NCBI RefSeq assembly: GCF_004375085.3
Contig: NZ_SNAQ03000012.1
Coordinates: forward strand, 124,001 to 188,000
Source: Lewinella sp. W8
Lineage (GTDB): Bacteria; Bacteroidota; Bacteroidia; Chitinophagales; Saprospiraceae
Direction: 5' to 3'
Length of the DNA: 64,000 bases
Below the pieces are notes generated by a model, which was not told the origin of the DNA, did no database searches, and saw only the letters and a program-made list of their open reading frames with translations. A program made the translations under genes and the position numbers. Positions 5,984 through 24,797 of the stretch are shown here, in pieces; positions within the stretch are counted from its first letter, which is position 1; every line of letters begins with the position of its first letter.

Positions 5984-7201
5984 CTAGTACGCCAGGGCGG
6001 GCACCGGCTGGAAAGCCGGTGCGGGCATCAGGTTTTCGAAGTGCAGCAGGTACCAGTCGGCGATGTCGGCCATCGGCAGGCCGGCGGAAGCTGCGTAGTT
6101 TTTCTGGGCAAGGTCCAGAATCTGATCCTCGTTTTCGAGCAGCTTCTGAATGGCGTCGGCCAGGCTTTCCACGGATCCGGGCTGGAAGAACTCTCCGGCG
6201 TATCCTTCCTCTTCAATCAGCGTCTTCAGGTCGCCGATGTTGGGCAGGATGCAGGCGCAGCCGTAGCTGCCCGCCTGGTGAAGTACGCCGGAACTTCCGG
6301 TGGTACTCGTGTAGGGGAATACCGTGATGGCGCTATCACCAAATACCGTCGGGACGTCCTCTTCGGCCACGTAGCCCGTAAAGCGAATCTGGTCCACTTT
6401 AGCGTATTGCTGCTTGATCTCCTCGAGGTATCCGACGCGGTTGGGGGAGTCCGTACCGGCGATAACGATTTCAATGTTCTCGTCGGTGCGGCTGCGCACG
6501 AGCTCGACGGCTTCAATCATTTCTTCCACCTTTTTGTAGGTGCCGAATTTCCCGAAGGCCATGATCTGCCGCGGTCCGGCCGGGAGCCGGAAATCGGGCG
6601 TTTCGGTGGTCTCAAAGGTGCCGTGGGGAACCAGGGCCACGTTCTTGGCGCCGTACTTCTTCTCCAGGATGTTGACGTACTTGGAGATGGTTACCGTGAG
6701 CAAATTGGACTGCAGCAGAATGAACGTCAGCAGGGTCCCGATCAGGCCAAAGATGGATTGCAACAGACGGTTATTCGTGATTCCTGCGGAGGAAAGGTCT
6801 ACCGTTTCGGTCAGGTTGTGCAGCAGCACCACCGAAGGGACGCCCATCAGGCGACAGAAGAGGGGCGTGAGGAGTCCTAATCCTGCCGCCAGCTTTTTAT
6901 CTCCGAAGGAGAGGAAGTGAATATTAAAGAAGGCAACGTCGGCTTTGGAGGTCCTAACTGCTTTGAGGATCTTGAATAGATTACTCAGGCTGTTGAATTT
7001 CCAAACGTCCTGCAGGTTCACCGGAACTTTTCCCTCGGGAATCTCGTACTGTTCGCCTTCCGGGAGCTGGTCCGTAATCAGGACAATTTCTTCAATCTGT
7101 TCCTTTTCCCGGAACTGTGCCACCAGGTGGTAGGCATATTCATTGAGGGTACCCTTACTTGGTGGATAGGGTGAGATAAGGGCGATTTTTTGCTTGTGCA
7201 T
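5984..7201 (-). CDS. GT4-type glycosyltransferase
   Basis: About 405 residues with a GT-B fold. The N-terminus (KIALISPYPPSKG) is typical of glycosyltransferase family 4, and the C-terminal half carries the sugar-nucleotide region (FGKFGTYKKVEEMIEA, then PYTSTTGSSGVLHQAGSYG in the acceptor/donor loop). It probably adds a sugar to a lipid-linked or polysaccharide intermediate at the inner membrane. The start at 7201 puts the conserved strand next to the N-terminus; ATG at 7222 is also possible. In both cases the 5' end overlaps the end of the flippase gene, which implies translational coupling. It is the last gene of the minus-strand arm of the polysaccharide locus. Confidence 0.85.
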   Translation of the reverse strand: MHKQKIALISPYPPSKGTLNEYAYHLVAQFREKEQIEEIVLITDQLPEGEQYEIPEGKVPVNLQDVWKFNSLSNLFKILKAVRTSKADVAFFNIHFLSFGDKKLAAGLGLLTPLFCRLMGVPSVVLLHNLTETVDLSSAGITNNRLLQSIFGLIGTLLTFILLQSNLLTVTISKYVNILEKKYGAKNVALVPHGTFETTETPDFRLPAGPRQIMAFGKFGTYKKVEEMIEAVELVRSRTDENIEIVIAGTDSPNRVGYLEEIKQQYAKVDQIRFTGYVAEEDVPTVFGDSAITVFPYTSTTGSSGVLHQAGSYGCACILPNIGDLKTLIEEEGYAGEFFQPGSVESLADAIQKLLENEDQILDLAQKNYAASAGLPMADIADWYLLHFENLMPAPAFQPVPALAY

Positions 7202-8426
7202 CTTCTCGTTGTTTAAGGGCATGAACCACCGTCATGGTGAGGAAGAGTCCTCCCATCAGGATGATCTGCAGGTATATGATGGAAATAATACTGTCGTGGA
7301 AATAGGAGATCAGAATGATCTGCAGGATTCCCGTTATGCCCGAGAGCACCACGGGGAGGTAGTAGTTCAGGGATAGGTAGTAGTAGGCGAAGACGTTCGC
7401 GCAGGCGAACAGGGTTGTCGCCAGGGCATAGAGCCAGAGCACCTGGCCAATGCTGTGAAACGCTTGTCCGAAAAGCAGGTGGACAATCAGATCCGAAGCC
7501 CCGAAGCAGGTCATCGTGATGACCACGCCCATCGTCATCACGATGAGCAGGGAGCGGTAGAACAGGTGGCGGTGGGGCTCACCGGCTTTCTCGGCCTGGA
7601 TTACCTTGGGAAAAAGCAGCGTTACGACCGACCAGGTGGCAAAAAATACCACCCGTCCAATGAGCGCCAGCGCTGCGTACAGTCCGGCTTCTTCGGCATT
7701 AAAGTAATGCTTTACCAGAATGACGTCACTGTGACTGATGAGAATCTGACTGAGTTCATAGGCTCCCATCACCAGGATAAAGTTGATCATCCCGCGACGG
7801 AGCTTCCGGGAAGGAAGCCCGGTGGGGAGTGATTTCTCCAGTTTGAAGGTGGGCACGTAAGCCGCCACAAAGGCGGCCAGGAAACCCAGGGTAACCGCCA
7901 GCGTAGCCCAGTCGCCGCCCAGGGTGATGAGCAGACCGATGAGTAGGCAGGTGATGACCAGCCGGCCAAGCATTTCCAGTAGGTAGCTGGCGGCCAAGCG
8001 GCCAAATTGAAGATCGCCCTGCAGCAGTCCCCGCCCAACGCTCATCCGCAGGTAGAGGGGGATGGCGGGTGCGAGCACCAGAAAGGGGACGACCGAGCTG
8101 AACTGAAGGTAGTCCCGGAGAATTTCGCTGCCCAGCACCATCACCAGACTAATGACCGTACCCACCAGGGTGGCCCGGTGGAGCAGCCACTTTTTAAACC
8201 CGGCTGCGGAATCCTGTGCGCCAAACTTGGCGGCCGTGAGCTGAAAGCCCAGGGCCACGAAGGACAGCATCAGCACGCCGGTGGCCAGTACGCCAGCCTC
8301 CGCGAAGGCTTCGGGTCCAAGGATGCGCCCTAGGAGCAAGTTGATCAGGTAATTCCCGGCGTTCACCACCACAATGGCGGCAAACAGTAGCGTCGAGGCG
8401 GGGATGGTGAGGTTGCGAATCTTCAT
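7155..8426 (-). CDS. Oligosaccharide flippase (MOP/Wzx-like membrane protein)
   Basis: A 423-residue polytopic protein with about 12 hydrophobic segments. The N-terminus (TLLFAAIVVVNAGNYLINLLLGRILGPEAF) has the pattern of polysaccharide flippases: a first helix, then a conserved loop with R-x-L-G-P-E. Proteins of this superfamily move lipid-linked oligosaccharides across the inner membrane. It sits 9 bp downstream of the STAS gene and overlaps the GT4 gene, so STAS, flippase and GT4 look like one operon. Wzx-type flippases vary strongly in sequence, so the substrate is unknown. Confidence 0.85.
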   Translation of the reverse strand: MKIRNLTIPASTLLFAAIVVVNAGNYLINLLLGRILGPEAFAEAGVLATGVLMLSFVALGFQLTAAKFGAQDSAAGFKKWLLHRATLVGTVISLVMVLGSEILRDYLQFSSVVPFLVLAPAIPLYLRMSVGRGLLQGDLQFGRLAASYLLEMLGRLVITCLLIGLLITLGGDWATLAVTLGFLAAFVAAYVPTFKLEKSLPTGLPSRKLRRGMINFILVMGAYELSQILISHSDVILVKHYFNAEEAGLYAALALIGRVVFFATWSVVTLLFPKVIQAEKAGEPHRHLFYRSLLIVMTMGVVITMTCFGASDLIVHLLFGQAFHSIGQVLWLYALATTLFACANVFAYYYLSLNYYLPVVLSGITGILQIILISYFHDSIISIIYLQIILMGGLFLTMTVVHALKQREDAQAKNRPYLTLSTK

Positions 8427-8435
8427 GACCGGAGA

Positions 8436-8771
8436 TTAGGCGGCTTGCATTCTGCGAATCGGCAGGCAAGTGTGCAGTTTCGTCAGGTTGATGAGTTCAT
8501 CCAGGGGACTGGTTTCTGACAGGATCAGGCTCAGTTGCCGCTGGCGTTGCCGCATCTCACGGGCAATGACCGTAAGGGCGTTCAGGCCCGCTAGGTCAAA
8601 TTTTTCGATCTCCCTCAGGTCGATAATCAGGGGCTGAGGACGGTTGCGGAGGGTCTCGAGGATGCCCTTCTTGAAGTTGATGGCCTCCAGGCCGCTGAGG
8701 TTACCACTCAGGCGCAGCATGCTCACTTCGCAGGGACCGGAAAGGGTAAGTTCTATTTGTAGCGTTGACAT
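8436..8771 (-). CDS. STAS-domain protein without the usual phosphoacceptor serine
   Basis: A 111-residue single-domain STAS protein of the anti-sigma-factor-antagonist (SpoIIAA-like) type: LRLSGNLSGLEA forms the first strands, PLIIDLREIEKFDLAGLNALTVIA the central strand and helix. SpoIIAA-type proteins normally have D-S-S/T-G at the phosphorylation site; here the site reads D59-L60-A61-G62, so the usual Ser/Thr is absent. The protein may therefore act as an unswitched partner-binding module. A single STAS protein (SypA) controls the syp biofilm polysaccharide locus of Vibrio fischeri, which makes its place directly before a flippase notable. The start ATG is at 8771, 24 bp after a strong hairpin. 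Confidence 0.8.
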   Translation of the reverse strand: MSTLQIELTLSGPCEVSMLRLSGNLSGLEAINFKKGILETLRNRPQPLIIDLREIEKFDLAGLNALTVIAREMRQRQRQLSLILSETSPLDELINLTKLHTCLPIRRMQAA

Positions 8772-8795
8772 TGGTCAATGGTTTTTTTTTGAAAG

Positions 8796-8819
8796 GTGGC
8801 GCTCCCGAAGGAGCGCCAC
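8796..8819. promoter_or_regulatory. Perfect 10-bp hairpin upstream of the STAS gene
   Basis: GTGGCGCTCC and GGAGCGCCAC pair perfectly around a CGAA loop. On the minus strand it lies 24 nt before the STAS start and is followed by an A-run rather than a T-run, so it is not a normal terminator for the upstream GT2 gene. A leader or mRNA-stability role is possible. The surrounding gap 8772-9016 holds nothing else recognisable. Confidence 0.35.
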
Positions 8820-9016
8820 TGAGACAGGTCTATTTGCAAAAATGAGAGTGTGGTTTACAGCCACAGTTTTGAGAGAGACACACAATTGAACAGTTAGATC
8901 TTGGGGAGCTTTCTCCCTTTGTTGACACAAATCTATCGCCGGAAATAGCCGGCCCGAGGAATTCTCGATGAATGGTAGACCGCTGCCGTTTTTTGGCAGA
9001 ATCGCCCGTTTTTTGG

Positions 9017-9829
9017 TTAGAGCAGGTTCAGGCTGGCCCGCAGGCGGTACGACCAGCGGTTGATGCGCTGGGGAGACAGCGTCAGGGCCGGACGCAGATC
9101 ATAGGCCAGGAAGATTTTCATGAGTTGTACGGGAATCATGACCGAGTCCTTCAGGGTGAGTTTGGAGCCCTCAACGTGGACCCACTCCCGCAGCGGCTGT
9201 TCGTGAATCCGGTACATGATGTTACGGCGTCCATACTGCTTCCGGGCCCGGATGAACAACTCCACGTCGAAGAGCCACCGCGTCACGAATCCTTGCCGGA
9301 AACAGCTGCGGGCCAGATCGGCATCAAACACCTTGGCGCCGCACTGGGTGTCCTGCACGGGAAGGCGGAGGATGGCGCGGATCATGGTGCCCGCTACGCC
9401 ACTGGCGATGGTGCGGAACAGTGACCGGTCCACCTTACTGTCTTCGCTGATCTTGCGGGAACCGAAAACCAGTTTCTTCGGACCGGTCGGGGACCGCAGA
9501 ATGTCCACCAGCGTGGCGTAATCTTCAAAGCTGGTCGACAGGTCGGCATCCATGAAGCCGACGTTGTGGATTTTTGGATCGGCCACCAACCGTAAAGTGC
9601 CGGCCCGTACGGCTTCCGCCTTTCCCCGGTTGCGGGGCATATCGTGCACGATTACCCGTTCGGGGTACAGTTGTTGAAATTGCTGGAGCTCCTCCAGGGT
9701 GCTGTCCGTGCTGCCGTCATTAACGAAACACAGTTGAAACGGGGCATTATTGTTCAGGAATTCCGCGAAGGCGTCGAAGCGTAAACGTTTGGCTTCATTG
9801 TAGCAGGGGATGACGATTCCGTTAATCAT
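9017..9829 (-). CDS. GT2 glycosyltransferase, dolichyl-phosphate glucosyltransferase-like
   Basis: A 270-residue GT-A protein. GIVIPCYNEAKRL is the N-terminal nucleotide-binding strand, VNDGSTDSTLEEL the uracil-binding region and FMDADLSTS the D-x-D metal site. QDTQCGAKVF and TRWLFDVELFIRA are typical of the DPG-synthase branch, which transfers glucose from UDP-glucose to polyprenyl phosphate. No C-terminal transmembrane segments are visible. A polyprenyl-phosphate-sugar product would suit a GT-C enzyme, and a GT-C-like membrane protein starts divergently 192 bp away. The gene is separated from the STAS gene by 245 bp, so it may form its own transcript. Confidence 0.85.
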   Translation of the reverse strand: MINGIVIPCYNEAKRLRFDAFAEFLNNNAPFQLCFVNDGSTDSTLEELQQFQQLYPERVIVHDMPRNRGKAEAVRAGTLRLVADPKIHNVGFMDADLSTSFEDYATLVDILRSPTGPKKLVFGSRKISEDSKVDRSLFRTIASGVAGTMIRAILRLPVQDTQCGAKVFDADLARSCFRQGFVTRWLFDVELFIRARKQYGRRNIMYRIHEQPLREWVHVEGSKLTLKDSVMIPVQLMKIFLAYDLRPALTLSPQRINRWSYRLRASLNLL

Positions 9830-10021
9830 AATTGGATCATTTGCTCACAAATTTGCCGTGAGTCAATGCCCGGAATCGCCGTAATTCGATGTTCTGTCCC
9901 TTCCTCCCTGTAATTGGAGAGATTGCTTCTTTTTTTGGTTTTTTCCGGCTTTGGGGCCGTTTCGCGGCCGCTTCCGGCCGAATTATTTGTAATACTTTAG
10001 CCCCTGATCGTAAGCAATTCT
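9830..10021. promoter_or_regulatory. Divergent intergenic region between the two polysaccharide arms
   Basis: The 192-bp region separates the minus-strand GT2 gene from the plus-strand membrane-protein gene and must hold both 5' control regions. It contains a T-rich stretch and a small inverted repeat (CGGCCG at 9965-9970 and 9975-9980). No exact TAnnTTTG box was found. Confidence 0.4.
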
Positions 10022-13000
10022 ATGTCCCGGAACATTCGTAAGTACTACTATTTGGCCCTGTTTGGTGGCCTGGTGCTTCACGGAGGAACGTTACTGTTCA
10101 CCTTCGAGGGGACTTACGATGCCTTCGTCCATTTGTTCTTTGCGGACCACTACGCTTCCCACTGGTTCGAGACCTGGAACTACCAGTGGTACACGGGCTT
10201 TACGGTTACGAGTTACCCGCCCCTGGTGCATCACGTCATTGCGCTCCTGTCAAAAGTCGTCGGCCTCAAGGCCGGATTTTTGCTTTGGTCCTTTTTTGTC
10301 ATTCTGGTCTTCATCCGCGGAGTGTTTCAGTTTTCTCGCATCTGGGTGGGGGAGGAAGCGGCGGCCTATGCCGCTATCCTGGCCGTGTTTTCTACTTCCT
10401 TCGGCGAGGCACTACACATCTTCGGCCAGCTGCCCAGCATTACCGGGGTAGCTTTTTTGCTGAATGCCTGTCCGGAACTCTACGCCTGGTTACGCCACGA
10501 TGAGCGCTGGCGCTTATTTACCGGCCTGTCGATCCTGGCCATCACCAGCTCCGCTCATCACGTCACGACCATTTTCGGCATGGTCTTTTTCGTTCTGCCC
10601 ACCCTCGGCCTGGCGGTAATGAATCGCGCCGCGGATCGGTCGGGGGACGATGATATTCACTTTCGGGATATTTTCGCGGAGGTGATCCGGGTGTTGCCCC
10701 GGGCCGTATTTTTCGGAATCGCGGTCATCACCATCACCGCCATCGTAATATTCCCTTACTGGTACTGGTCTAAATCCGATCCCATCACCCAGGTTTCCAT
10801 CCCCCACGGCTCCCGGGATAACTTCCTGGAGGTCACCTCCTCCGGGCTGGTTTTCTTCCTGATTCCCTGGGGCATGATGCTCTTTTTCCTGCCCTTCCTG
10901 TTTCGGGAATTGTTCCGCAAGCGGAATATTTTCCTGGGGCTCAGCATCGGGCTGGCCTTCCTGCTGGGGACGGGAGGAACGACGCCCCTGCCCCGAATGA
11001 TGCTCGGGGAGACGGCCTTCAACATCCTCACCCTTGATCGCTTCACCTACTGGGCCTCCCTGCTATCCCTGCCTTTCTGGGGCTACTTTTTTTATCATTT
11101 GGCCGAAGGCAGGTGCCGGGAATATCTGGTACGGCAATGGGGCCGGGTAATCCACGGGCTTTGCCTGGCTTTTTTTATCGGGGGCACGGTCATCTCGGCA
11201 CTGGTAGTGGTAAATTTTCAGAACTTCCGGGCCACGCAACCCACGGCCATCGACATGGACCCCATCGTCAGCTTTCTGGAACGCGACCAGCACCACAAGT
11301 GGCGCTTTCTCACCCTCGGGTTTGGCGACCAGATGGCCTGGCTTTCCTCCCAGACCGATGCCCTGAGCGTAGACGGAAACTACCATTCCGTGCGCCGCCT
11401 TCCGGAGCTGACCTCCCGGGCGGTCGAGCGATTAGAGAACGCCAAGTATCTCGGAGCTGACGGCATCAGCTCCCTGCAGCAATTCCTCACGGTTCCGGAA
11501 AAATATCACCTCAAGTACATTTTCTCGAACGACAAGTTTTACGACCCCCTGCTCTTCTTTTGCGGCTGGAACCGGGTGCAGCAGCTAGAGAATAATATCG
11601 TCATTTGGGAGAAGCCGGATATTCCTACGCTTCCTTCCGTGCTGCCCAGGAAGAACCAATCCAGTGTTCACCGGCTGATGTGGGGCATCTTGCCCATCAG
11701 TTGCCTCCTTTTCGGGCTGCTCCTGAACGTCGTGGTGCGGCTGCGCTTCGGGTCACTCATGGAAAAGCAGGTTGTTCTTCCCCGCGGGGAACGGCAGCTC
11801 TGGACCGTCAACCTGATTTGGGCCGTCCTGCTCTTTGCGGTCGTCAGCGGGACTTCGTTGGTTGCCGCCTACCAGCATTATGATCACGCCACCCCCGAGC
11901 AATTAATCGATGCTTATTTTGGTCATCTTGACTTCAAGCGATTCCAGGCGGCCCACCAGTGTTTTGACCCGGATAACCGTCCGAGTCTGGAGCAGTACCT
12001 GCTCGAGTTATCGGTTGAGGGCGGTATTCTGTCTTCCTACGCAAAACTTGATACTCTGGAAGTGGAGTGGTTGCCTACCGAAGGTGCTGAAGAAAAACAC
12101 GCCATGGTTACCGCCACCTGGCTCACGGCGATTCGCACTTATCGGTCGGTGCACGATATTCAGCTGGTTCGTCGGGGACTGCGGTGGTATCTCCGCCCTT
12201 TCACGCTGGAGCAACGTACTCCTCCCGACCAGTTCGTTCGCTTACCTAGCGTGGACTTTCACTCCCAGGGAAAACGCCGCACGGTGGCCACCACGGTGGA
12301 GAAACGAGACGTTCGGGACCGCCCCGACGTATATGTCCTGTCGGCAGCACTGGTCAATGGCGGTGGCACTTTTGCCGTTACCGGGCAGATCCTGAACGTG
12401 GATAATGACCCCGCCTACCTGACGGTAGAGGCTACCGTATACGATAGTCTGGGGCAGGAAATCGGGCGGTACAATGCCCGCGATGTTGTGCAGCACATCC
12501 TGTACCCGAAAGAACATACGGGCTTCCGGGTGGACGTGGAGGAAGGAATGCTCGACGCCGGAGCCGTTCCCGCGAGCTTCGACCTATCGGTTAGGTCCAT
12601 GGTCGCTGCGAACGAAACCTATAAACGCACGGGCGTGCAGGGGCTCCGACTGGACCAGGACCGCCGCTTGCACGGAGAATTGCTCAATTATGGTGCCCGA
12701 CAAATCATCGTCCCGCAGGGCATCATCAACTATTACGATCAGGGGGGAGATATGGTCTGGGCCGACGCTTTTTTTCTGGAGGGCGGCATCCGTCCCCAGC
12801 GGCGAAAAGCTTTCACCTTTTCCCTAAAGGACTTAACGGACTTCCGCATCGTCCAACGGGGAAATGATGACCGGCTGCGGGTAAACGGTGTGTCCCGGCG
12901 GGCATACCGGGAAGCCCTGAACTTTCCCGCTTCACCGGACGCCTACCGTCGGCATACCTTCCGCCTTCCGGGCGAAGGCTCGCTTGACCTGAGCATAACG

Positions 13001-13030
13001 GCACAAATGGCAAGCTTCAGTGATGAGTAG
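10022..13030 (+). CDS. Large polytopic PTPS-related/GT-C-like membrane protein
   Basis: A 1002-residue protein with about ten hydrophobic segments in the first 400 residues, one more near residue 565 and one near 605. The N-terminal segment (TYDAFVHLFFADHY, then WNYQWYTGFTVTSYPPL) has the acidic periplasmic loop and W-x-x-G-x-x-x-x-x-Y-P-P-L pattern of the 6-pyruvoyl-tetrahydropterin-synthase-related membrane family, which resembles GT-C glycosyltransferases using polyprenyl-phosphate sugars. The C-terminal periplasmic part has an NTF2-like region (about 625-740) and an FxLYD-like beta region (about 775-860). It heads an operon whose next genes overlap it and each other. A polymerase or sugar-transfer role is inferred from fold pattern and context. 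Confidence 0.7.
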   Translation: MSRNIRKYYYLALFGGLVLHGGTLLFTFEGTYDAFVHLFFADHYASHWFETWNYQWYTGFTVTSYPPLVHHVIALLSKVVGLKAGFLLWSFFVILVFIRGVFQFSRIWVGEEAAAYAAILAVFSTSFGEALHIFGQLPSITGVAFLLNACPELYAWLRHDERWRLFTGLSILAITSSAHHVTTIFGMVFFVLPTLGLAVMNRAADRSGDDDIHFRDIFAEVIRVLPRAVFFGIAVITITAIVIFPYWYWSKSDPITQVSIPHGSRDNFLEVTSSGLVFFLIPWGMMLFFLPFLFRELFRKRNIFLGLSIGLAFLLGTGGTTPLPRMMLGETAFNILTLDRFTYWASLLSLPFWGYFFYHLAEGRCREYLVRQWGRVIHGLCLAFFIGGTVISALVVVNFQNFRATQPTAIDMDPIVSFLERDQHHKWRFLTLGFGDQMAWLSSQTDALSVDGNYHSVRRLPELTSRAVERLENAKYLGADGISSLQQFLTVPEKYHLKYIFSNDKFYDPLLFFCGWNRVQQLENNIVIWEKPDIPTLPSVLPRKNQSSVHRLMWGILPISCLLFGLLLNVVVRLRFGSLMEKQVVLPRGERQLWTVNLIWAVLLFAVVSGTSLVAAYQHYDHATPEQLIDAYFGHLDFKRFQAAHQCFDPDNRPSLEQYLLELSVEGGILSSYAKLDTLEVEWLPTEGAEEKHAMVTATWLTAIRTYRSVHDIQLVRRGLRWYLRPFTLEQRTPPDQFVRLPSVDFHSQGKRRTVATTVEKRDVRDRPDVYVLSAALVNGGGTFAVTGQILNVDNDPAYLTVEATVYDSLGQEIGRYNARDVVQHILYPKEHTGFRVDVEEGMLDAGAVPASFDLSVRSMVAANETYKRTGVQGLRLDQDRRLHGELLNYGARQIIVPQGIINYYDQGGDMVWADAFFLEGGIRPQRRKAFTFSLKDLTDFRIVQRGNDDRLRVNGVSRRAYREALNFPASPDAYRRHTFRLPGEGSLDLSITAQMASFSDE

Positions 13031-14282
13031 GTGGAAGATCAACATACTGGGATTACTACTCCTGAGCGGGCTGCTGGGTTGCCGGGGCGGGGAGCCTTCC
13101 CCGGAAGACATCCCCACGGTGGTGGCCGAATTTGTCAATGCCCCCCGGGGATTATCCGTTGGCACACCACTGTCCGTAACTGCCCGGGGAAGCGGGGTGG
13201 AACATTCGTTGCTTACCTGGACCAATGTGTTCGGGATCCGGGTAATCCCCGGGGGTAGCCTGAAGGCTGAAGGAGAAATTTACGCATGGCCAATCCCCGA
13301 GGATTTGCTGCGGGTTGCGGGAAAGGTGGATCTGGTCCTGGCGCATAACGGAAGCGTGTTGGCTACCCACAATCTGCTTATCCGCCCTGGCCCCCCGACG
13401 GGGATTATGGAGACCTACGTCGGCCCCAAAACCCTGGTGGTCAACAGTGAGCAACCGGCCATGATGATCACCGTACCCCTGGATACCTTCGGCAATCCGG
13501 TGGACAATCAACGGTCGGTGACGCAGCAAGTGAAGTATCCCGGTCGGGAAACGATCTCTCGGGAACTGCGAACGACCAATCTCGTGAGCAGCTACGAACT
13601 GGCCGCGGGTCCCCAAACGGGCAAGATATTGCTGGCCGCTTCGGCGGACGCTTCCCGGACGGTAGAAGAGAACATTGAACTGACTCCCGCCTGGCCCGAA
13701 ACCACCGTGATCCAACTCGATCAGTTCTATCCCTTTGCCGACAGTCGCCAGGAATACTGGGTGAGCACTGCGCCCGTGATGGACGTATACGGCAACCCCG
13801 TGGCCGACGGCACGGTAGTAGAATTTGTCTTGCGCAACGGAGACGGAAGTTTGTACGGAAAGTATCGTGCCTTTACCACCGGAGGGGTCGCGCAGGCTCA
13901 TCTACTGAATCCGGTAGCGCCGACCAACTTGCGGTTATCGGCCAACGTACCGGGCGGCGCAACGTCCAACAGTTTGGCGCTGGAGTTTGCCGCCTACGTG
14001 ACGCAGATGCCCTTCCGGGTCGAACCCGATGCGAGAAGGGTTGAGGTAGGTCCCCTGGGGGCGGTCATGGGGCAGGTGGTTGGCGATGATTTGCCGGTGT
14101 CACTGCAAATAGCGGGAGGTGGGCAGCAATATGCTGCGGAAAAACTGACCTACGAGGGCCAATGTACCTTTGAGCTTCCCGCCAATCTTCCTCCCGGTGA
14201 GTACACCGGCGAGCTACGCGCGGGAGGACTGATCAAACCCCTCCGGATAACCCTGACAGAAATCCCGCGGAATGGATTCTAG
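13023..14282 (+). CDS. Ig-like-domain lipoprotein of the polysaccharide locus
   Basis: About 419 residues with a clear lipoprotein signal (ILGLLLLSGLLGC). The rest is beta-rich and lacks catalytic motifs: VPLDTFGNPVDNQ and APVMDVYGNPVADGT have the D-x-x-G-N-P-V-x-x-G/N pattern of bacterial Ig-like (invasin/Big_1) domains, suggesting two or three such domains. The ATG at 13023 overlaps the upstream stop codon by 8 nt and the gene's own end overlaps the next gene by 11 nt, so translational coupling is likely. It is probably a periplasmic or outer-membrane scaffold for the polymer machinery. The function is not recognised beyond the fold. Confidence 0.7.
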   Translation: MSRWKINILGLLLLSGLLGCRGGEPSPEDIPTVVAEFVNAPRGLSVGTPLSVTARGSGVEHSLLTWTNVFGIRVIPGGSLKAEGEIYAWPIPEDLLRVAGKVDLVLAHNGSVLATHNLLIRPGPPTGIMETYVGPKTLVVNSEQPAMMITVPLDTFGNPVDNQRSVTQQVKYPGRETISRELRTTNLVSSYELAAGPQTGKILLAASADASRTVEENIELTPAWPETTVIQLDQFYPFADSRQEYWVSTAPVMDVYGNPVADGTVVEFVLRNGDGSLYGKYRAFTTGGVAQAHLLNPVAPTNLRLSANVPGGATSNSLALEFAAYVTQMPFRVEPDARRVEVGPLGAVMGQVVGDDLPVSLQIAGGGQQYAAEKLTYEGQCTFELPANLPPGEYTGELRAGGLIKPLRITLTEIPRNGF

Positions 14283-15855
14283 AGCAAGAAATATTGCGGG
14301 GCGAAGGACCCTGATGGCACTGGGCACGGCCCTGTTGCTGGCCCTCACCATCTGGGTAATGAGTATGGTGCTGGTGTACTTCCGAAGTGGGGCCACCTGG
14401 GGAATCCCTTTTGGACAATCGGGCAGTTATCTACTGGAATTTTCTCCGGTGACCACCTGGGTGGATACGGTGCCGGAAAACGGAGAGCCCCGGCCGGGAA
14501 ACTACGTGCTGCGGGAAATCAAGGAGGAGTATCTCCGGGCCTGGTCCGCGCTAAATCTGGCGACGGTCCAGCGGGATTCTGCCCTGCTGAAGGACCATTT
14601 TGCGGAGAATTTATGGCCATCCTTAAACCTTATGCTGGCGGCGGAAGAAGACTATACCGTTGAGCAGGTTGACCTGAACCACGCCCTGGACCTGCACACC
14701 ATTGCCTTCGATAAGCAGACGGTGGCGCTGAAGGACGTGGGCGTCAAGGTTGTCCGGGAGGTCCGGGATTCTGAGACCCAAAGCCTGCTCCATCGCGCCC
14801 AGGATACGGCTGACTACGAGGTGGTCATGACTCTTGATGATGGCCGCTGGCGTATCCGCCACTGGCGGAAAAACGTGGCGTCTGCTCCGATGGCTCAGCA
14901 GGACTCCCTAACTGGTCCGGTAACCCTCGACGGTCAGTCCTTTTACCTGAACGGCAATCGGTTTGAGCCCCAAGGCATCAACTACTACGCGCAGGATGCG
15001 GCCTGGTTTGAGTTCTGGGAAGCATATGATCCGGGTACGGTGCGGGAGGACCTGGCCATCATTCGCGGCCTCGGATTTAATGTGGTCCGGATTTTTGTGC
15101 AGTATGAATTGTTCGGCGGGGCGGAGGTACTTCCTGGCGAATTAGCCAAACTCCGGGACCTGCTGGACGCCGCTGAGGACCAGGGAGTCATGGTTATGGT
15201 CACGCTTTTCGACTTTCTGCCGGAATACCGATTGCTGCACTACGGAGCACACGAAAGGCACTTACGGAGCATCATTCTGGAGCTCAGGGATCACCCGGCA
15301 CTTTTTGCGTGGGACCTCAAAAACGAACCCGACCTGGATTTCGAACGACAGGGGCGGCGTAACGTAATCAACTGGCTGGACTACATGCTGGGGCGGGTTC
15401 GGCATTACGATGGCGGGCACCCCGTAACCATTGGTTGGTCTACCGCCGGGGAAGCTGATTTACTGTCTGCGGGTGTCGACTTCCCGTCCTTCCACTACTA
15501 CGAGGCCATTGATGACCTGCCCGCAGTGCTTGAAAACGTAAAGGAGAAAGTGCCCGGACGACCCATTATGGTGAGTGAGTTCGGAATGTCAACCTATAAC
15601 CCGTTCTGGTTCCCCTACGGTCACTCCCGGGAGGATCAGGCCGTCTATTACCGGCGGGGACTGGAGGTTATGCAGCAAACTCCCGGAGTAAGTTTTGCCT
15701 GCTGGACCCTGTATGATTTCCCGCGATTGCCCGATGGAGTATTCAGCGGGCCTTTCTGGCGTAAACGGATACAACAGCGCTTCGGGTTGCTGGAAGACCG
15801 GCAACACGAGAAGCCCGCTGCCCAGGTGGTCCGGGAAGAGCTGACGGTGGAATGA
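14272..15855 (+). CDS. Membrane-anchored GH5-like glycoside hydrolase with NTF2-like domain
   Basis: A 527-residue protein: one N-terminal transmembrane helix (about 14-36), an NTF2-like region (about 80-200) and a (beta/alpha)8 glycoside hydrolase domain of GH5/clan GH-A type (about 215-515). The acid/base glutamate is Glu352 in WDLKNEPD and the nucleophile Glu436 in MVSEFGMS, the usual strand 4 and strand 7 positions. Orientation implies a periplasmic catalytic domain held at the inner membrane. Many exopolysaccharide export operons include such a hydrolase (for example BcsZ or PelA) to trim the polymer. The start overlaps the upstream lipoprotein gene by 11 nt. Substrate unknown. Confidence 0.8.
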   Translation: MDSRARNIAGRRTLMALGTALLLALTIWVMSMVLVYFRSGATWGIPFGQSGSYLLEFSPVTTWVDTVPENGEPRPGNYVLREIKEEYLRAWSALNLATVQRDSALLKDHFAENLWPSLNLMLAAEEDYTVEQVDLNHALDLHTIAFDKQTVALKDVGVKVVREVRDSETQSLLHRAQDTADYEVVMTLDDGRWRIRHWRKNVASAPMAQQDSLTGPVTLDGQSFYLNGNRFEPQGINYYAQDAAWFEFWEAYDPGTVREDLAIIRGLGFNVVRIFVQYELFGGAEVLPGELAKLRDLLDAAEDQGVMVMVTLFDFLPEYRLLHYGAHERHLRSIILELRDHPALFAWDLKNEPDLDFERQGRRNVINWLDYMLGRVRHYDGGHPVTIGWSTAGEADLLSAGVDFPSFHYYEAIDDLPAVLENVKEKVPGRPIMVSEFGMSTYNPFWFPYGHSREDQAVYYRRGLEVMQQTPGVSFACWTLYDFPRLPDGVFSGPFWRKRIQQRFGLLEDRQHEKPAAQVVREELTVE

Positions 15856-15984
15856 GGTGGGGAACGGGCAGGAAATTATGCGTTTGGCAGCAGAAATTCT
15901 GAGTTTGGGCCAATGGCTTCGTTTTTTGGTTATTGAGGGCGGTTAACTGGTTGTTCCGCTGCAATCGGAGCCAATAAGTGCCGG

Positions 15985-15992
15985 TAGTTTTG
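15985..15992 (+). promoter_or_regulatory. Candidate -7 promoter box before the TPR/barrel gene
   Basis: TAGTTTTG matches the Bacteroidota -7 consensus TAnnTTTG exactly and lies 24 bp before the ATG at 16017, leaving a leader of about 15-20 nt. No TTG was found at the usual -33 spacing. It suggests that the TPR/barrel gene has its own promoter besides the operon transcript. Confidence 0.4.
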
Positions 15993-16016
15993 TGGACGTA
16001 TCCGCAAGACACTAGC

Positions 16017-18086
16017 ATGAAACCTTTCATTTTTCTTTTCGCATTTACCCTGATTTACTCGGGTTTATTCGCTCAGCTTGCGCTGGAGCCTGGCTTCGCG
16101 ATGCTGGAAGCCGGCGAGGTAGCGGAGGCCGAAACCTTCTTTGGTGAGGTCCTTCGAAAGGAGCCCGATAACCTGACGGCCAACATCTGTTACGGCCGGG
16201 CGGTTGGGCTTAATGGTCGGGCAGACGTAGCCGTTGACCGATTCAAAAAGCTGCGGGAGGTACATCCGGAGAACCTGGAAGTGGCCCTGAACCTGGCGGA
16301 AGCTTTCATGTGGAAAAAGGATTACGGTACTGCGGTTACGCATTACGAAGAACTCATCGCTTCCCACCCCGATAATTTTACGGCGATTCTGGGGGGCGCT
16401 AACGCCCAGGCTTCGGTCAGGAACTACCCACAGGCGTGGCACCTGATTGGTCGGGCACTGCACCTGCGTCCTCGCCATGAAAGTGCGTTGCGATCACGAA
16501 AATTTATCCTGTTCGGGCGAGCGGGAAAGGCAAAGGAAGACTGGAATTATCGGGCGGCGCACCGCATTCTCGATTCCCTGGAGTTGCTCTATCCGGGGGA
16601 GTTGAATACCCTGCTTATTCGGGGTGACGTCTTGCTAGCGGAGCAAAAGATTGGGGCCGCCGCCCGGCATTTTTCTACCATGGTTGCGGACAGCACGGCG
16701 CTCGACCGCGCCTACGGAGGATTGTCCTACACCAGTATGCTGAAGCGGCAGAAAAAACAGGCCATCAAGTTTGCCCGTTTGGCCCTGGAGCATCATCAGG
16801 GGGACGACGTATCTCCACAGCTGCAACTGGTCAACGCCCTGGGTTTTGCGGGGCGGTTCAGGGAAGCTTTTGCCCTGCTGGATTCATTGGAAAGTACCAC
16901 CGAGGCACTGGAAAAGGTCCGCCTCGCCCGGGCCAGGATGCTGCTCTGGAGCCGGGAAATTCGGGACAGCAAGGGGCTGTATGATTCCCTTCTGCTCGCC
17001 ACCAAACCTGACTTCGACCTCCTGATGGGGGCGGCGGACGCCCAGCGGGCTAATCACGAGCTGGACCGGGCCATCGACCTGCTGACGGAGGCCAGAAACC
17101 TCCGTCCGGAATCACCTGATGCCTTCCGGGTGTGGCGGCAACTGCTGCAGGAGGACCGGCCAACCGTAGCGTTGGGGGCCAATATGTTGGAAGACAACGG
17201 TGGAAACCGTGGATTGGGCAAAAACGCCCGGATCACCTTTGCTCGCTACGGGAAATTTCGTCCCCACTTCGGGGTGGATCAGTGGGAAGCCCAGAGTATA
17301 AACGGCGATGGCCCTCCCGCCGATCAACTGACCATCGAGGCGGGAGGAAGGTACCGCGTGAACGCCACTACCGAAGCCCGGATAAGTGGAGGAGTGACCA
17401 ATTTTGCCGTTGCAGATAGCCTGCGGCAATCCGTCCTTCGGGGAGAAGCGGGGGTAAACTTCCGGCTGGGAAAATACCATTCGCTGGACGTAGCCGCGAG
17501 TCGTGATCTGCACAACTATACGGCCAGTCTGGTGCGGGCGGGAATATTGCGTAATCACCTGACGGCAACCTACAATTTCTCCAGCCAGGGGCCCCTGGGG
17601 CTGTACGCCCAGTACATCCGCACGGCTCAATCGGACGGAAACCAGCGCTCCCTGTTGTTCCTTTCGCTCTACTGGCAGGTCATGGAGTCTCCCTGGCTTA
17701 AGGTGGGACTGAACTACAACCAATTTGGGTTCAAAGAACAGGTGCCAAGTCTGTACTTCAGCCCCCGGGCAGCCCGGGGAGCAGAGATTTTCCTGCAGTT
17801 GAATAGCGACAAAGCTCCGGGTAAGCGCTTCTTCTTTGATCTCTTGCTGGCTGCCGGGAACCAACGGGTGGAAGAAAATGCTGCAGAAATGGCCGTTCGC
17901 GGGAATCTGGACCTGGGCTTCCGGCCCACCCAAACGCTTGAGCTGCTGGCGCAAGCTTCGGTAGGCAATACGGTGCAATCCGTCGCTTCGGGCTACGCTT
18001 ACCAGCGCTTCGGCCTGGCCTTGCGCTACCACTTGCCCGTAACGAAAAAGCAGAAAAACGGGCTGGATCGGTCAAAAACCGAATAG
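16017..18086 (+). CDS. TPR plus outer-membrane beta-barrel protein (polymer export candidate)
   Basis: About 689 residues. A signal peptide (MKPFIFLFAFTLIYSGLFAQ) fixes the start at 16017 rather than the in-frame GTG at 15978. The first 380 residues form tetratricopeptide repeats. The C-terminal 300 residues alternate aromatic and polar residues as in an outer-membrane beta-barrel, ending in YQRFGLALRYHL. A periplasmic TPR superhelix joined to an outer-membrane barrel is the architecture of PgaA and BcsC, which export poly-N-acetylglucosamine and cellulose. Following a GT-C-like protein and a periplasmic hydrolase, an export-porin role is plausible. Family identity needs a profile search. Confidence 0.7.
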   Translation: MKPFIFLFAFTLIYSGLFAQLALEPGFAMLEAGEVAEAETFFGEVLRKEPDNLTANICYGRAVGLNGRADVAVDRFKKLREVHPENLEVALNLAEAFMWKKDYGTAVTHYEELIASHPDNFTAILGGANAQASVRNYPQAWHLIGRALHLRPRHESALRSRKFILFGRAGKAKEDWNYRAAHRILDSLELLYPGELNTLLIRGDVLLAEQKIGAAARHFSTMVADSTALDRAYGGLSYTSMLKRQKKQAIKFARLALEHHQGDDVSPQLQLVNALGFAGRFREAFALLDSLESTTEALEKVRLARARMLLWSREIRDSKGLYDSLLLATKPDFDLLMGAADAQRANHELDRAIDLLTEARNLRPESPDAFRVWRQLLQEDRPTVALGANMLEDNGGNRGLGKNARITFARYGKFRPHFGVDQWEAQSINGDGPPADQLTIEAGGRYRVNATTEARISGGVTNFAVADSLRQSVLRGEAGVNFRLGKYHSLDVAASRDLHNYTASLVRAGILRNHLTATYNFSSQGPLGLYAQYIRTAQSDGNQRSLLFLSLYWQVMESPWLKVGLNYNQFGFKEQVPSLYFSPRAARGAEIFLQLNSDKAPGKRFFFDLLLAAGNQRVEENAAEMAVRGNLDLGFRPTQTLELLAQASVGNTVQSVASGYAYQRFGLALRYHLPVTKKQKNGLDRSKTE

Positions 18087-18151
18087 GGGCAACCAAAAAT
18101 CGAAAAAAGGGGAATGCCCGGACGGAACCCCCCAATTTTGATGAAAATTAA

Positions 18152-20452
18152 ATGATGAAAAACTCAATTCTCCATACCTGCCTGCTGCTCGTTTTCTTCC
18201 TTTTGGGAGCGAGTGATCGTGCTAGTGCGCAGTGTGACGGCTGTAACGTCATGGTTTGTGACGGCAATGCCTGTGACGATGGATCTCCCGCGGACGGCGT
18301 GCAGACCTCCCGGAACTGCGGCTGTGGTCAGGAAATCCGGGGAGCGTGTGCCTACGTGGAGATTGACATGACGCTTAACCCTTATTTTGATCCGAACGAT
18401 CCGTCGTGTAGCCTGATTTTTTCCACCCAGGAATCCGGTAATTTTTCCATCTATTTACTGGAAGCCGGCTGTGACCTGACCGATTGCGGCAATCCCGATT
18501 TCGTCATTACCGGTGGCGGAGCCATCAGTGGGTTTCCGAGTTCCGGTCAATTCGAGGTGATGGTTTGTAAGAACGGCGGTAATGCCGGTCGGCGGGACTT
18601 TTCCTTCGGGGTTAGTTGTTCCAGCGTGGAAAATTGTCTTAATGCCATCGACGACAATCTGGATGGCTTCATTGACTGCGACGATGCGGATTGTAGCCTG
18701 GATACCAATTGCAGTGCCCAGTACACCACCACCTCCAGTGGAGAGGACGGCGGGTTAGAGAGTAACCGTCGGTTATCCCAGAAAATCGCCCGGAGAAATT
18801 ACCAGCGTAGCCGGAATGCTTCCCCACGGGCAATCAACGTAAACGAACGACTTTTCGAACGCGATCACGAGCGGCTGAAGCGGGGAGTGGTAACCAAATC
18901 CAACGACTTTTCGTTAGCGGACTTTATCCCCGAAGGAGCCATCGCGGAAACCCAAACGTACGTGAGTACCCCCGACGATATCGTGGACATCACCAACGCC
19001 GTGGAAGTTTTAAGTGTGGATGTGTTCCGCCGGGATCTGAGAGTAGGTTCAGTCTTTGCGACAAAATCTACTGATGGTGTTTATGAGCACACCAAGCTGG
19101 TCTGTGACCGGTTGCACGGCGCGAGTATTGATGCCGTGTGGGAGCACCCCATCGGCGGAGACGAAAAATACCTCATTACCCGGTTCTCCCGTGCCGACGG
19201 TACCGTAGAATACGCGACGAACTTTTCCTTCTTCCGGTACGCTGACGGATCCTTTCAGGTCGAGAGCCACTGGAACCTTTCGGACTACACGCCGGACATG
19301 ACTTACGGAAATTTTCAGCTGTGGTCCAATAACCTGGCCAATCTGGAGGCACTCGTGATGGAGCTGAAGGAACTGCTGATGGAGCAGGGTAACGTCAAAG
19401 CCTTTCGATTTTCGGAAGCTCCCCGGGTACTCATCAAGCGTATGGATTATCTGGGTGAGGAACTCAGATTGAAAGTCCTGAATCGTTCCGGGGCTAAAGA
19501 ACTTATCCTGAGTGGAGAATACTTGCCAACGGAGACGGAACAGCCCAACTGGATGTTCGAAACCATTGCCCTAAGTGGGCGGGAGCAGGAGACCGTGACG
19601 GTGCCCATCAATGGACTGTACAATGCCGGCCTGAAGGTAAGCACGGACGTAGTGGACGTGGTGTACGACGGGATTTTTGTAGCGGATGGGACCTGGGCGG
19701 TAGATTATCCCGTTGGGGGTGCCATGATTTACGACTACGAGGTTTCTCCGGGGAAAACGTCCTGGGAAGAGGGAGAATTTACGGTGGAGCGCAACGTCCA
19801 CCTCATGGGACAATTGAGGGACTACGTAAATGTGTACCGGTCCTTTAATCCGGCCTTTAGTTCCGTAGACCTTAGCGCCTTCAACGAATTATCCTTCCGG
19901 GCCAGTGGAGTGGGAGACCTGACGGTCACCCTGGTTCGCGCCGGCATTCAGGACTGGGATAAGCAAATGAAAACGCGGGTCCGGCTGGAACCGGATGCCC
20001 GGGACATTTCCCTGCCCCTCCGGGCCTTTTCAGCCGGCGAAACGGCGGAACTGGACTGGTCGGACGTAACGATGATCGTTTTTACTCAGGAGGGAAACGG
20101 TCAGGATCGGCAACAGTTACTCCTGAATATTGAAGAAGCAACCTTCTCGCATAAGGAAGAGCGGTTTTTTGAATTGATGGAAATGGGTTCAGAGGAGTCC
20201 TGGGTTTTTCCTAACCCAATGGAAGCTCAGGGCTCCCTCTTTTTCCAGGCGAATACCGCCGGAACCTATCATTTCCAACTTATTGATCCCCGGGGAAGGG
20301 TGTTACAATCAAAAACCGGGGCTTGTGCTGCCGGCAATCACCAGATCCTTCTTCAGAATGATGATTACTTGCCGGGGGTATACTACTACCGGGTCAGTTT
20401 GTCGGACGGAAATTTGCTTTCCGGAAAGATAATGATGAGTGCCGCTCGCTAG
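18152..20452 (+). CDS. T9SS type A secreted surface protein
   Basis: A 766-residue protein with a signal peptide ending near ASAQC. The first 200 residues are Cys-rich and end in a CLNAIDDNLDGFIDCDDADC element, an Asp-rich motif common in Saprospiria surface proteins. The middle (about 250-670) is beta-rich and includes a region resembling a carbohydrate-binding jelly roll (about 530-670). The last 85 residues form a type A T9SS sorting domain: WVFPNPMEAQGSLFF, then LIDPRGRV and GVYYYRVSLSDG. It follows the TPR/barrel gene by 65 bp on the same strand, so it may be a surface partner of the exported polymer. Enzymatic activity is not apparent. Confidence 0.75.
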   Translation: MMKNSILHTCLLLVFFLLGASDRASAQCDGCNVMVCDGNACDDGSPADGVQTSRNCGCGQEIRGACAYVEIDMTLNPYFDPNDPSCSLIFSTQESGNFSIYLLEAGCDLTDCGNPDFVITGGGAISGFPSSGQFEVMVCKNGGNAGRRDFSFGVSCSSVENCLNAIDDNLDGFIDCDDADCSLDTNCSAQYTTTSSGEDGGLESNRRLSQKIARRNYQRSRNASPRAINVNERLFERDHERLKRGVVTKSNDFSLADFIPEGAIAETQTYVSTPDDIVDITNAVEVLSVDVFRRDLRVGSVFATKSTDGVYEHTKLVCDRLHGASIDAVWEHPIGGDEKYLITRFSRADGTVEYATNFSFFRYADGSFQVESHWNLSDYTPDMTYGNFQLWSNNLANLEALVMELKELLMEQGNVKAFRFSEAPRVLIKRMDYLGEELRLKVLNRSGAKELILSGEYLPTETEQPNWMFETIALSGREQETVTVPINGLYNAGLKVSTDVVDVVYDGIFVADGTWAVDYPVGGAMIYDYEVSPGKTSWEEGEFTVERNVHLMGQLRDYVNVYRSFNPAFSSVDLSAFNELSFRASGVGDLTVTLVRAGIQDWDKQMKTRVRLEPDARDISLPLRAFSAGETAELDWSDVTMIVFTQEGNGQDRQQLLLNIEEATFSHKEERFFELMEMGSEESWVFPNPMEAQGSLFFQANTAGTYHFQLIDPRGRVLQSKTGACAAGNHQILLQNDDYLPGVYYYRVSLSDGNLLSGKIMMSAAR

Positions 20453-20541: not shown

Positions 20542-21243
20542 TTATAGCGGATCTATTTTTTCTAATAAGGCATTCCGGTGAGCTCTGCTCACTGGAATGA
20601 TTTTTTTTTCGATCAGTACACTGTTGTCTTCAATGTCCACAATCTTGGCCAGATTGATGATGTAGGAACGGTGGACCTTCAGAAAATTGGGGTGTTGGAG
20701 TTTTTCGGCGATACTCCGAAGGGTAGCGTGCACCAGATACTGATTGCTCTCGGTTTTGAATAGTACGTAATCGCCGACGTTTTCCACGTAGAGAAGTTCC
20801 GGTAGGTTGATCCGAATAAACCGTCCGTCAGAGCGAATGAAGATATAATCCTTAATCATGGATTGCATACCCTCTTCCGGTTGTAGTTTTTTGCGGACCC
20901 TTTCCATGGCCTTGAGCAAGCGGGGCAGGGTAGCGGGCTTGGGGATGTAGTCGGCCACCAACTCGCGATAAGAGAAGGCTTCGGCGGCGTATTCCCTTTT
21001 TGAACTGATAAAAATAATGATGGGCAGGTTCCGGGAGCTTTGCATCAGGTCCACTCCGGTCAGACCGGGCATTTCTACGTCCAGGAAAAGTACGTCAACG
21101 TCATTGTCCTTAAGGAATTTCAGTGCCTCCAGGCCGTCAGCGCAGGTGCCAACGATCGTCAGGTCATCAATTTTTTCACAGAACTTCTGCAGGGAAGCCC
21201 GTGAAAGTTTGTCATCGTCGACAATCAGTCCTTTTAGGTTCAT
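20542..21243 (-). CDS. LytTR-family response regulator
   Basis: A 233-residue protein with an N-terminal receiver domain (KGLIVDDDKLSR acidic pocket, phosphoacceptor Asp in VLFLDVEMPGLTGV, Lys in YIPKPATL) and a C-terminal LytTR DNA-binding domain (DYIFIRSDGRFIRI, LLYVENVGDYVLF, FLKVHRSYIINL). It probably binds promoter repeats after phosphorylation. Its ATG overlaps the stop codon of the hybrid kinase gene by 4 nt (ATGA), so the two are translationally coupled and very likely form one signalling pathway. The target genes cannot be read; the nearest large locus is the polysaccharide region ending at 20452. Confidence 0.93.
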   Translation of the reverse strand: MNLKGLIVDDDKLSRASLQKFCEKIDDLTIVGTCADGLEALKFLKDNDVDVLFLDVEMPGLTGVDLMQSSRNLPIIIFISSKREYAAEAFSYRELVADYIPKPATLPRLLKAMERVRKKLQPEEGMQSMIKDYIFIRSDGRFIRINLPELLYVENVGDYVLFKTESNQYLVHATLRSIAEKLQHPNFLKVHRSYIINLAKIVDIEDNSVLIEKKIIPVSRAHRNALLEKIDPL

Positions 21244-24110: not shown

Positions 24111-24116
24111 TTGGGC

Positions 24117-24653
24117 TTATCGGATTAGGGTAAACTGTACCTTTCCACCAGTATCATCGAGCCATTCTTCTTCCAATTGTACCTCCTGCTCCGGATAGTG
24201 GTCAATGGAGGCCTGCAGCAAGCCGCGGGCGAGATCCGCCATTTTCCTGGGGGATTCGTAGAGCAGCACCAGGCGGTTGGGTTGGTGATCCAGTACGACC
24301 AGGCTCGGAAGCTCAGCATCCCGATATAACTTTTTCACCTCAACGTGAATGTAGGTGTGGATGGAAGCCAGAAACTCAAACAAGTCACCGGATTCAAAGA
24401 AGTGAGGATAGTTACGGTGCAAGCCGAGGAAGAGGGAGTGGCCGAACTTTTCCAGGAGGGTAGATACGGGAATTTGTTGGTGTTTACTCAGGGTCGAAAC
24501 CAGCTGAACCATTTCCGAAGCGGGATAGGATCCGACGGCGGTGTAGGCACCGCCACTGGGTACTTCGGCCCCGTCGATCACTTCCTCAACGGTGATCTCG
24601 CCGAACTCCCGTTCGACCATGTCCAAGAATTCGGTAAAAACAATGCCTTTCAT
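24117..24653 (-). CDS. H-NOX haem nitric-oxide sensor
   Basis: A 178-residue stand-alone haem-NO-binding domain. The proximal haem ligand is His103 in YIHVEVKKLY and the haem-propionate motif Y-x-S-x-R is YESPR (132-136). The N-terminus MKGIVFTEFLDMVE is typical, so the start is ATG 24653, not the upstream in-frame codon at 24686. Overall it resembles facultative-anaerobe/aerobe-type H-NOX proteins that bind NO and regulate a partner kinase encoded next to them. The order H-NOX, hybrid kinase, LytTR with gaps of 6 and -4 nt makes a compact NO-response operon. Ligand selectivity (NO versus O2) is inferred from the family. Confidence 0.92.
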   Translation of the reverse strand: MKGIVFTEFLDMVEREFGEITVEEVIDGAEVPSGGAYTAVGSYPASEMVQLVSTLSKHQQIPVSTLLEKFGHSLFLGLHRNYPHFFESGDLFEFLASIHTYIHVEVKKLYRDAELPSLVVLDHQPNRLVLLYESPRKMADLARGLLQASIDHYPEQEVQLEEEWLDDTGGKVQFTLIR

Positions 24654-24797
24654 ATTCTGAGCAGTTCTGACAACAAAAGAAAACATACCGGGGAAATCCA
24701 GGGGATTTACACCAGCGATGAAGATACAGCTTTAGACGTTGACCGGGATGGGAAGTCACCTCCCCGGAAGGAAGCACCTTTTGATGGATGGGCCTGC

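Follow-up and report, generated by a model that had tools for sequence, protein, structure and literature searches.

A conserved polysaccharide-type gene set with a GT-C-like enzyme and a TPR-barrel protein in Bacteroidota

The window analysed here, a stretch of 64,000 nucleotides from Lewinella sp. W8, carries at 5984..20452 nine genes which an earlier note, made from the sequence alone, had read as a two-armed locus for the synthesis and secretion of an exopolysaccharide. The nine genes are real, most of them belong to one conserved system, and the system is broader than that note supposed. It has a core of seven genes (GT2 and GT4 glycosyltransferases, a GT-C-like membrane protein, a lipoprotein, a GH5 protein, a flippase and a TPR-barrel protein), with a STAS protein and a protein secreted by the type IX secretion system (T9SS) as common extras. 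Among 52 long loci 44 hold the complete core, three gene fusions join parts of the set, and direct repeats of one spacing recur upstream of core genes across loci. On balance, the genes probably encode conserved machinery for making a surface polysaccharide in two compartments and exporting it, which in this lineage would be under H-NOX/LytTR control. The features of the window are as follows.

5984..7222, minus strand: GT4 glycosyltransferase, cytoplasmic (PF00534, 4.1e-21)
7155..8426, minus strand: Wzx-type flippase (no Pfam match of its own; orthologues match PF13440)
8436..8771, minus strand: single-domain STAS protein (PF01740, 8.3e-9; Ala at the usual phospho-Ser place)
8987..9016: two copies of CGTTTTTTGG, 20 bp apart; weak candidate regulator site
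9017..9829, minus strand: GT2, polyprenyl-phosphate-sugar-synthase-like, no receiver domain (PF00535, 1.1e-17)
10022..13030, plus strand: GT-C-like membrane glycosyltransferase with C-terminal FxLYD (PMT_2 profile alignment; NF038353, 1.2e-5)
13020..14282, plus strand: periplasmic lipoprotein, possibly Ig-like (PF09134, E 0.013)
14272..15855, plus strand: membrane-anchored protein with a transmembrane (TM) segment, a conserved N-terminal domain and a GH5-type barrel (PF00150, 6.3e-7)
15878..15907: TGCGTTTGG / TGAGTTTGG, 21 bp apart; weak candidate LytTR site
15978..18086, plus strand: TPR and outer-membrane beta-barrel protein, putative polymer exporter (TPRs; partial PgaA model)
18152..20452, plus strand: T9SS-secreted protein, likely surface adhesin or matrix partner (TIGR04183, 1.1e-6)
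20542..21243, minus strand: REC-LytTR response regulator (PF00072 and PF04397)
21240..24110, minus strand: hybrid histidine kinase, PAS-HisKA-HATPase-REC-Hpt (Pfam)
24117..24686, minus strand: H-NOX, putative haem-NO-binding sensor (PF07700, 1.3e-38)

All nine open reading frames (ORFs) lie where the earlier note had placed them, and the gene overlaps that it gave were verified. The GT-C and lipoprotein genes overlap by 8 nt when the latter is started at the ATG at 13023 and by 11 nt from the GTG at 13020, and the lipoprotein and GH5 genes overlap by 11 nt. The extent of 5984..20452 stands for these genes, while the H-NOX/kinase/LytTR module at 20542-24686, which adjoins them, lay outside the coordinates first given.

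Conservation of the gene set

A pattern scan of genome contigs confirmed at least 550 relatives of the GT-C-like protein. The best 80 of these, which by title all come from Bacteroidota (Saprospiraceae, Flavobacteriaceae, Cytophagales and Chitinophagaceae), were kept. Of 80 loci tabulated (L013 and L026-L104), with score thresholds set by the analyst, 52 offer at least 22.5 kb of sequence. In these long loci the GT-C gene, the lipoprotein and the GH5 protein are found in all 52, the barrel protein in 50, GT4 in 49, GT2 and the flippase in 47 each and STAS in 29, counts that are conditional because the loci were selected by GT-C. The conserved co-occurrence of a polysaccharide-type set with a TPR-barrel and a GT-C-like enzyme, predicted earlier, is thus borne out. 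The two-armed layout is not a fixed feature, as gene order and strands vary among loci, and the limit to Saprospiria was drawn too narrowly: other families of Bacteroidota and plasmids of Deinococcus carry the GT-C gene. The retention of these genes in further families, and partly in another phylum, goes beyond chance.

The GT-C gene is present in 12 of the 61 genomes of the window's family and in 12 of the 395 sampled across the phylum, the genome of the window being included in both counts. Within the family, the GT-C-positive genomes are exactly those with a strong lipoprotein match (E < 1e-70); two GT-C-negative ones have marginal matches (1.2e-4 and 8.1e-4). The barrel profile matches TPR proteins in 60 of the 61 genomes, but the only scores above 150 bits come from the 12 GT-C-positive genomes and from G010, whose match is interrupted by a stop. 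For the lipoprotein and the barrel protein, homologues scattered independently of each other, which would have spoken against a system, are therefore not what was seen; both track GT-C in the 61 genomes. The locus of G010, which has no GT-C gene, holds a barrel relative of 249 bits with one stop and a STAS-like gene nearby, and is possibly a remnant.

A tree of the GT-C proteins, made by a quick method with long branches flagged, and from which L014-L023, the L154 protein and rows no longer than 900 aa were excluded, broadly tracks taxonomy. Two contigs of one Saprospiraceae bin (L052 and L062) carry flavobacterial-type GT-C genes, through either transfer or mis-binning.

A search of plasmids with GT-C gave four records, all from Deinococcus, identical to the query at about 37% of positions across 85-92% of its length. 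Three of these megaplasmid loci (L154, L155 and L156) were examined, with 38 of their 78 annotated coding sequences (CDS) translated. The flippase, GT2, GT4 and STAS were recognised in all three, and the lipoprotein and GH5 protein in L154 alone. In L155 and L156 GT2 and GT4 form a single protein of 651 and 650 aa, respectively. The Deinococcus loci also encode a SpoIIE phosphatase, RsbW-like ATPase domains and a second STAS protein. Downstream of GH5, L154 carries MBOAT, two ALGX proteins and AlgF, which in alginate producers acetylate the exopolysaccharide; these genes therefore lend independent support to a polysaccharide product. The four L154 proteins had no phmmer match in the ORFs of 90 Bacteroidota locus rows, clustered without L014-L023, which are copies of named loci. 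In L155 (Deinococcus aquaticus) a second, divergent GT-C homologue of 1069 aa lies near the first, at 21000-24209 on the plus strand (278.7 bits, no Pfam match).

Domains and fusions of the encoded proteins

The earlier labels of GT2, STAS, GT4, GH5, TPR and T9SS proteins are each backed by matches to curated models. The GT-C-like protein, of 1002 aa, had been called PTPS-related. Among 12 members of its family no Pfam match is convincing, the best (E 0.021) being to an unrelated family, and this label is unsupported; PF10131 matches 0 of the 12 at E up to 1, and filing the protein there was rejected. A search for the PF10131 family itself returned no match in 20 genomes nor in controls and is hence uninformative. 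Its W-WY-G-YPPL stretch is reminiscent of PTPS_related proteins. Alignment of the GT-C-like profile with one built from 20 PMT_2 (GT-C) proteins of the window's genome and its relatives gave an hhalign probability of 95 (E 3.4e-8, 286 columns), compared with 0.3 and 0.2 in two control comparisons using the flippase profile. The alignment begins at the YPPL motif, and just ahead of this motif T31, Y32, D33 and H37 are invariant in 36 of 36 sequences. The profile alignment, at a level indicating homology, supports the assignment of this membrane protein as a distant GT-C enzyme, in which the TYD residues may be catalytic, the Asp perhaps lying in the first periplasmic loop.

Hydropathy shows no TM stretch in the window GT2; the locus in the window is therefore, as the earlier note held, without a membrane-embedded processive GT2 of the Bcs/Pga kind. 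PDB relatives of the GT2 include the dolichol-phosphate-mannose (DPM) synthase 5mlz (2.8e-4) and sll0501 (5ekp), which we take to be the polyprenyl-phosphate enzyme GtrB. In many loci the GT2 bears a receiver domain (REC). By a hidden Markov model (HMM) count this holds for 45 of the 74 locus rows with an intact GT2, a few loci being contained twice (e.g. L017/L030 and L020/L045), while an N-terminal receiver is found in 46 of 78 GT2 proteins outside the window, e.g. in L047, L057, L070, L076, L084 and L085; a tally by regular expression, which found 10, was too narrow. The phospho-acceptor Asp is present in 41 of 41 aligned receiver rows, 5 rows being gapped. The locus of Lacihabitans soyangensis (L085) also encodes a stand-alone receiver protein of 120 aa (9697-10059, minus strand), and REC-GT2 in L054, L056, L058-L061 and others has as its neighbour a short GT2-like ORF (roughly 140-195 aa) that lacks the D-D-L motif.

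The GT4 matched generic GT4 models alone. The flippase label, for which the window protein itself gives no Pfam match, is carried by its orthologues: of the 18 scanned, 12 match PF13440 and 10 match PF01943, which places them with the Wzx flippases. The window STAS protein has Ala where the Deinococcus STAS proteins have Ser, at what we presume to be the phospho-site, and phospho-switching of this protein is therefore doubtful.

For the lipoprotein, no PDB relative was better than E 0.067; its Ig-like description has the PF09134 match as its basis. The GH5 protein has a TM segment at residues 17-35 by hydropathy, and its PDB relatives are endoglucanases, mannanases and others. Together with the PF00150 match, both Glu residues which we assume to be catalytic mark it as a GH5 member; by eye they are present in 17 of 19 aligned rows, the remaining two being without the barrel. 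The GH5 barrel is missing in 3 of the 52 long loci. In L042, L043 and L045 (the same locus as L020) the protein is shortened to about 192 aa with the N-terminal part kept, and hydrolysis must be dispensable there. In L085, GH5 is followed by a hydrophobic stretch and GT4 in a single protein of 971 aa. Through this fusion and GT2-GT4 the hydrolase is connected across the membrane with both GT2 and GT4, and the three fusions (REC-GT2, GT2-GT4 and GH5-TM-GT4) join cytoplasmic and periplasmic parts.

The barrel protein of the window shows TPRs and part of the PgaA model, with 54 bits against a cut-off of 366.65. Among whole orthologues the PgaA model is matched by 25 of 26, below the cut-off, and the BcsC model weakly by 8 of 26. 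When the barrel part was taken alone, BCSC_C was found in 7 of 26 orthologues (best 3.5e-4), a profile search gave NanC at 6.8e-6, and the PgaA model was weak (E 0.044 and 0.18 in 2 of 6). A barrel is likely.

When the T9SS protein was compared without its sorting domain, 14 of 42 loci with enough flank (L014-L023 were left out as copies) had a relative of its body no further than 3.5 kb from the barrel gene, and 28 had none there. The 14 loci belong to Saprospiraceae and Flavobacteriaceae, and T9SS cargo, proposed earlier as part of the system, is accordingly a recurrent partner. The relatives scanned carry DUF4114, DUF6923, or an ice-binding-like adhesive domain with PKD repeats, all with Por_Secre_tail; the protein is likely a surface adhesin or a matrix partner.

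H-NOX/LytTR module and promoter repeats

The H-NOX protein of the adjoining module has the HNOB domain and contains YxSxR, which we take to be the haem motif, in the form YESPR. H-NOX is present in 12 of 12 GT-C-positive against 11 of 49 GT-C-negative genomes of the family (Fisher 7.8e-7, kinship ignored). In 8 of the 12 GT-C-positive genomes no more than one gene separates the H-NOX/kinase/LytTR set from the barrel gene, and in G042 the set adjoins the flippase; for four of these (G019, G038, G050 and G052) the contig that carries it is not that of GT-C. Since the three genes also occur together in the GT-C-negative genomes G006, G014, G016, G037 and others, the set is not dedicated to this locus alone.

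At target promoters, LytTR sites consist of direct repeats of 9 bp that stand 10-13 bp apart (PMC11347149). Upstream of core genes, 150 regions contain 21 direct repeats at a start-to-start spacing of 21 bp, while the other spacings from 12 to 40 have a mean of 2.25 and a maximum of 6. In control regions the repeats at 21 bp numbered 4 in 179 promoters of other genes and 2 in 124 convergent regions. This test left out L015, L016, L018, L020, L030, L043, L072 and near-identical regions; before the latter were collapsed, the repeats numbered 11 in 44 regions with LytTR beside the locus and 16 in 132 with none seen, and the controls 0 in 49 and 8 in 166. The 21-bp spacing is LytTR-like, and its enrichment holds across loci, not in the window on its own. 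In the window, the TGCGTTTGG / TGAGTTTGG pair scores under the threshold of the cross-locus test, and the 10-mer CGTTTTTTGG, present 9 times against 6.64 expected, shows no over-representation. The module is likely a nitric-oxide sensor, which may control the locus. H-NOX/histidine kinase pairs of Proteobacteria are described as nitric-oxide signalling systems regulating sessile life (PMC8738867, PMC10746521); the pairing of H-NOX with a histidine kinase is shared with them, and the position beside polysaccharide genes, with a LytTR regulator, sets the present module apart.

Proposed route and alternative explanations

GT-C enzymes use lipid-phosphate sugars as donors, and relatives of the GT2 make polyprenyl-phosphate sugars, which is why the GT2 counts in favour of a route through two compartments. 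In the cytoplasm, GT2 would load a sugar onto polyprenyl phosphate and GT4 would act on a lipid-linked intermediate, after which the Wzx-type flippase would carry the lipid-linked material into the periplasm. There the GT-C enzyme would add the polyprenyl-phosphate-linked sugar to the chain, with the lipoprotein and the N-terminal part of the GH5 protein as a possible scaffold, and the GH5 barrel, where present, may trim or transglycosylate. The polymer would leave through the outer membrane by way of the TPR-barrel protein, as in BcsC and PgaA, and the T9SS protein could act at the surface as adhesin or matrix partner. Control would differ between lineages: in that of the window, H-NOX would signal through the hybrid kinase to the LytTR regulator, which would bind the 21-bp-spaced repeats at the operons; in others the receiver domain on GT2 itself would serve, and in Deinococcus a SpoIIE/STAS partner switch encoded within the locus. 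More tentatively, this could be a separate exopolysaccharide route, in which the GT-C enzyme polymerises in the periplasm from polyprenyl-phosphate sugars with neither Wzy nor a processive GT2, REC-GT2 is a phosphorelay output in many lineages, and nitric oxide acts through H-NOX/LytTR in Saprospiraceae. Domain scans of the nine proteins gave no Wzy, Wza or Wzc; the flanks and the genome were not searched for them. The sugar of the polymer is hinted at from two sides, and no choice is made between them. GT2 has a mannose-6-phosphate isomerase gene as its same-strand neighbour in 14 of the 90 locus rows, confined to two flavobacterial groups (L053, L054, L060 and 11 others), which hints at mannose; the annotation of the L154 GT2 as dolichyl-phosphate beta-glucosyltransferase hints at glucose.

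If this route is correct, many Bacteroidota would share an unrecognised surface or matrix polysaccharide, given the number of GT-C relatives, yet one with few carriers among the genomes sampled across the phylum. Lipid-linked sugar chemistry, a BcsC/PgaA-like exit and a T9SS adhesin would be united in one locus, REC-GT2 would place phosphorelay control on a polymer-synthesis enzyme itself, and control of matrix production by nitric oxide in Bacteroidota would become directly testable.

Several observations weigh against this assignment. The system is known here from genes alone. The best of six PDB matches of the GT2 is chondroitin synthase (2.1e-4), and its best NCBIfam match is PgaC_IcaA, at 42.8 bits far under the cut-off of 422.3. 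The window flippase lacks a Pfam match, 8 of the 52 long loci are without at least one core gene, and the 38 Deinococcus CDS tested, out of 78 annotated, include no recognised TPR-barrel. As to regulation, the Fisher test takes no account of kinship; in G009, G032 and G033 H-NOX does not share a contig with GT-C, and among the 90 locus rows it was seen in 6, which belong without exception to Saprospiraceae/Saprospirales and of which two are the same locus. The 8 repeats in 166 uncollapsed control regions point the same way, as does a scan of the window promoters with the LytTR consensus, which found 2 pairs against 1.04 expected and is not significant.

Of the known systems, Pel is built from a GT4, a flippase-like protein, a periplasmic hydrolase and a TPR protein with an outer-membrane barrel, and PelF and PelG are proposed to polymerise and translocate the chain together. 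The locus has apparent counterparts of all four, with GT4 beside the flippase and, in L085, coupled to the hydrolase. A less likely explanation is therefore that the GT4 and flippase-like protein perform both tasks here as well, while GT2 and GT-C add only side groups. However, the locus adds GT2, GT-C and STAS, no Pel regulator was seen, and none of 18 flippase members matched the PelG model PF16933, which was also not found in the Lewinella sp. W8 genome by a search that was positive in a Thermotoga control; as this model went unmatched, filing the system as Pel was rejected. Moreover, L051 and L092 are without GT4 and flippase and yet keep GT-C, lipoprotein, GH5 and barrel, although GT-C, having served to select the loci, is necessarily present in each. 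Pairs of GT2 and GT-C serve protein and lipid glycosylation elsewhere, and a T9SS protein is often adjacent, so the pair might instead modify lipids or secreted proteins such as the T9SS cargo, with no polymer exported. This we regard as improbable: a TPR-barrel in 50 of the 52 long loci, a polymer-type hydrolase and the alginate-type acetylation genes of L154 are at odds with it, and the T9SS protein is near the barrel in no more than a third of the loci counted. Least probable is that two independent loci merely adjoin, one with GT2, STAS, flippase and GT4 and the other with the plus-strand genes. Orientation and order do differ between loci, and L037, L051 and L092 have no GT4 and flippase nearby, but 44 of the 52 long loci have all seven core genes, both sets are also found together in Deinococcus, and GH5 and GT4 are fused in L085.

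Export of cellulose (Bcs) and of poly-N-acetylglucosamine (Pga) employs a TPR-barrel exporter and a processive GT2. The putative exporter of the locus resembles theirs, with PgaA, BcsC and BCSC_C matches below or near threshold; the difference lies in the GT2, which in the window has no TM stretch. In the syp locus of Vibrio fischeri a STAS protein controls a biofilm polysaccharide (SypA/SypE; PMC4517449). The encoding of STAS with polysaccharide genes is common to both, the more so in the Deinococcus loci with their added SpoIIE phosphatase and ATPase, whereas the window STAS has Ala at the Deinococcus Ser site and no SypE-like gene was recognised in the window. Fusions of a receiver to a glycosyltransferase are reported from archaea (PMC5847659); those of Methanobacteriaceae are of the BcsA-like PF13641 type, while in Bacteroidota the receiver is joined to a polyprenyl-phosphate-type GT2, that of the window being without it. 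In the titles and opening lines of abstracts of the open-licence literature searched, no description of the locus was recognised.

Elsewhere in the window, two very large repetitive secreted proteins of 1915 and 1610 aa are encoded on the minus strand at 37205-42952 and 44240-49072, and by eye their C-terminal ends resemble gliding/T9SS sorting domains.

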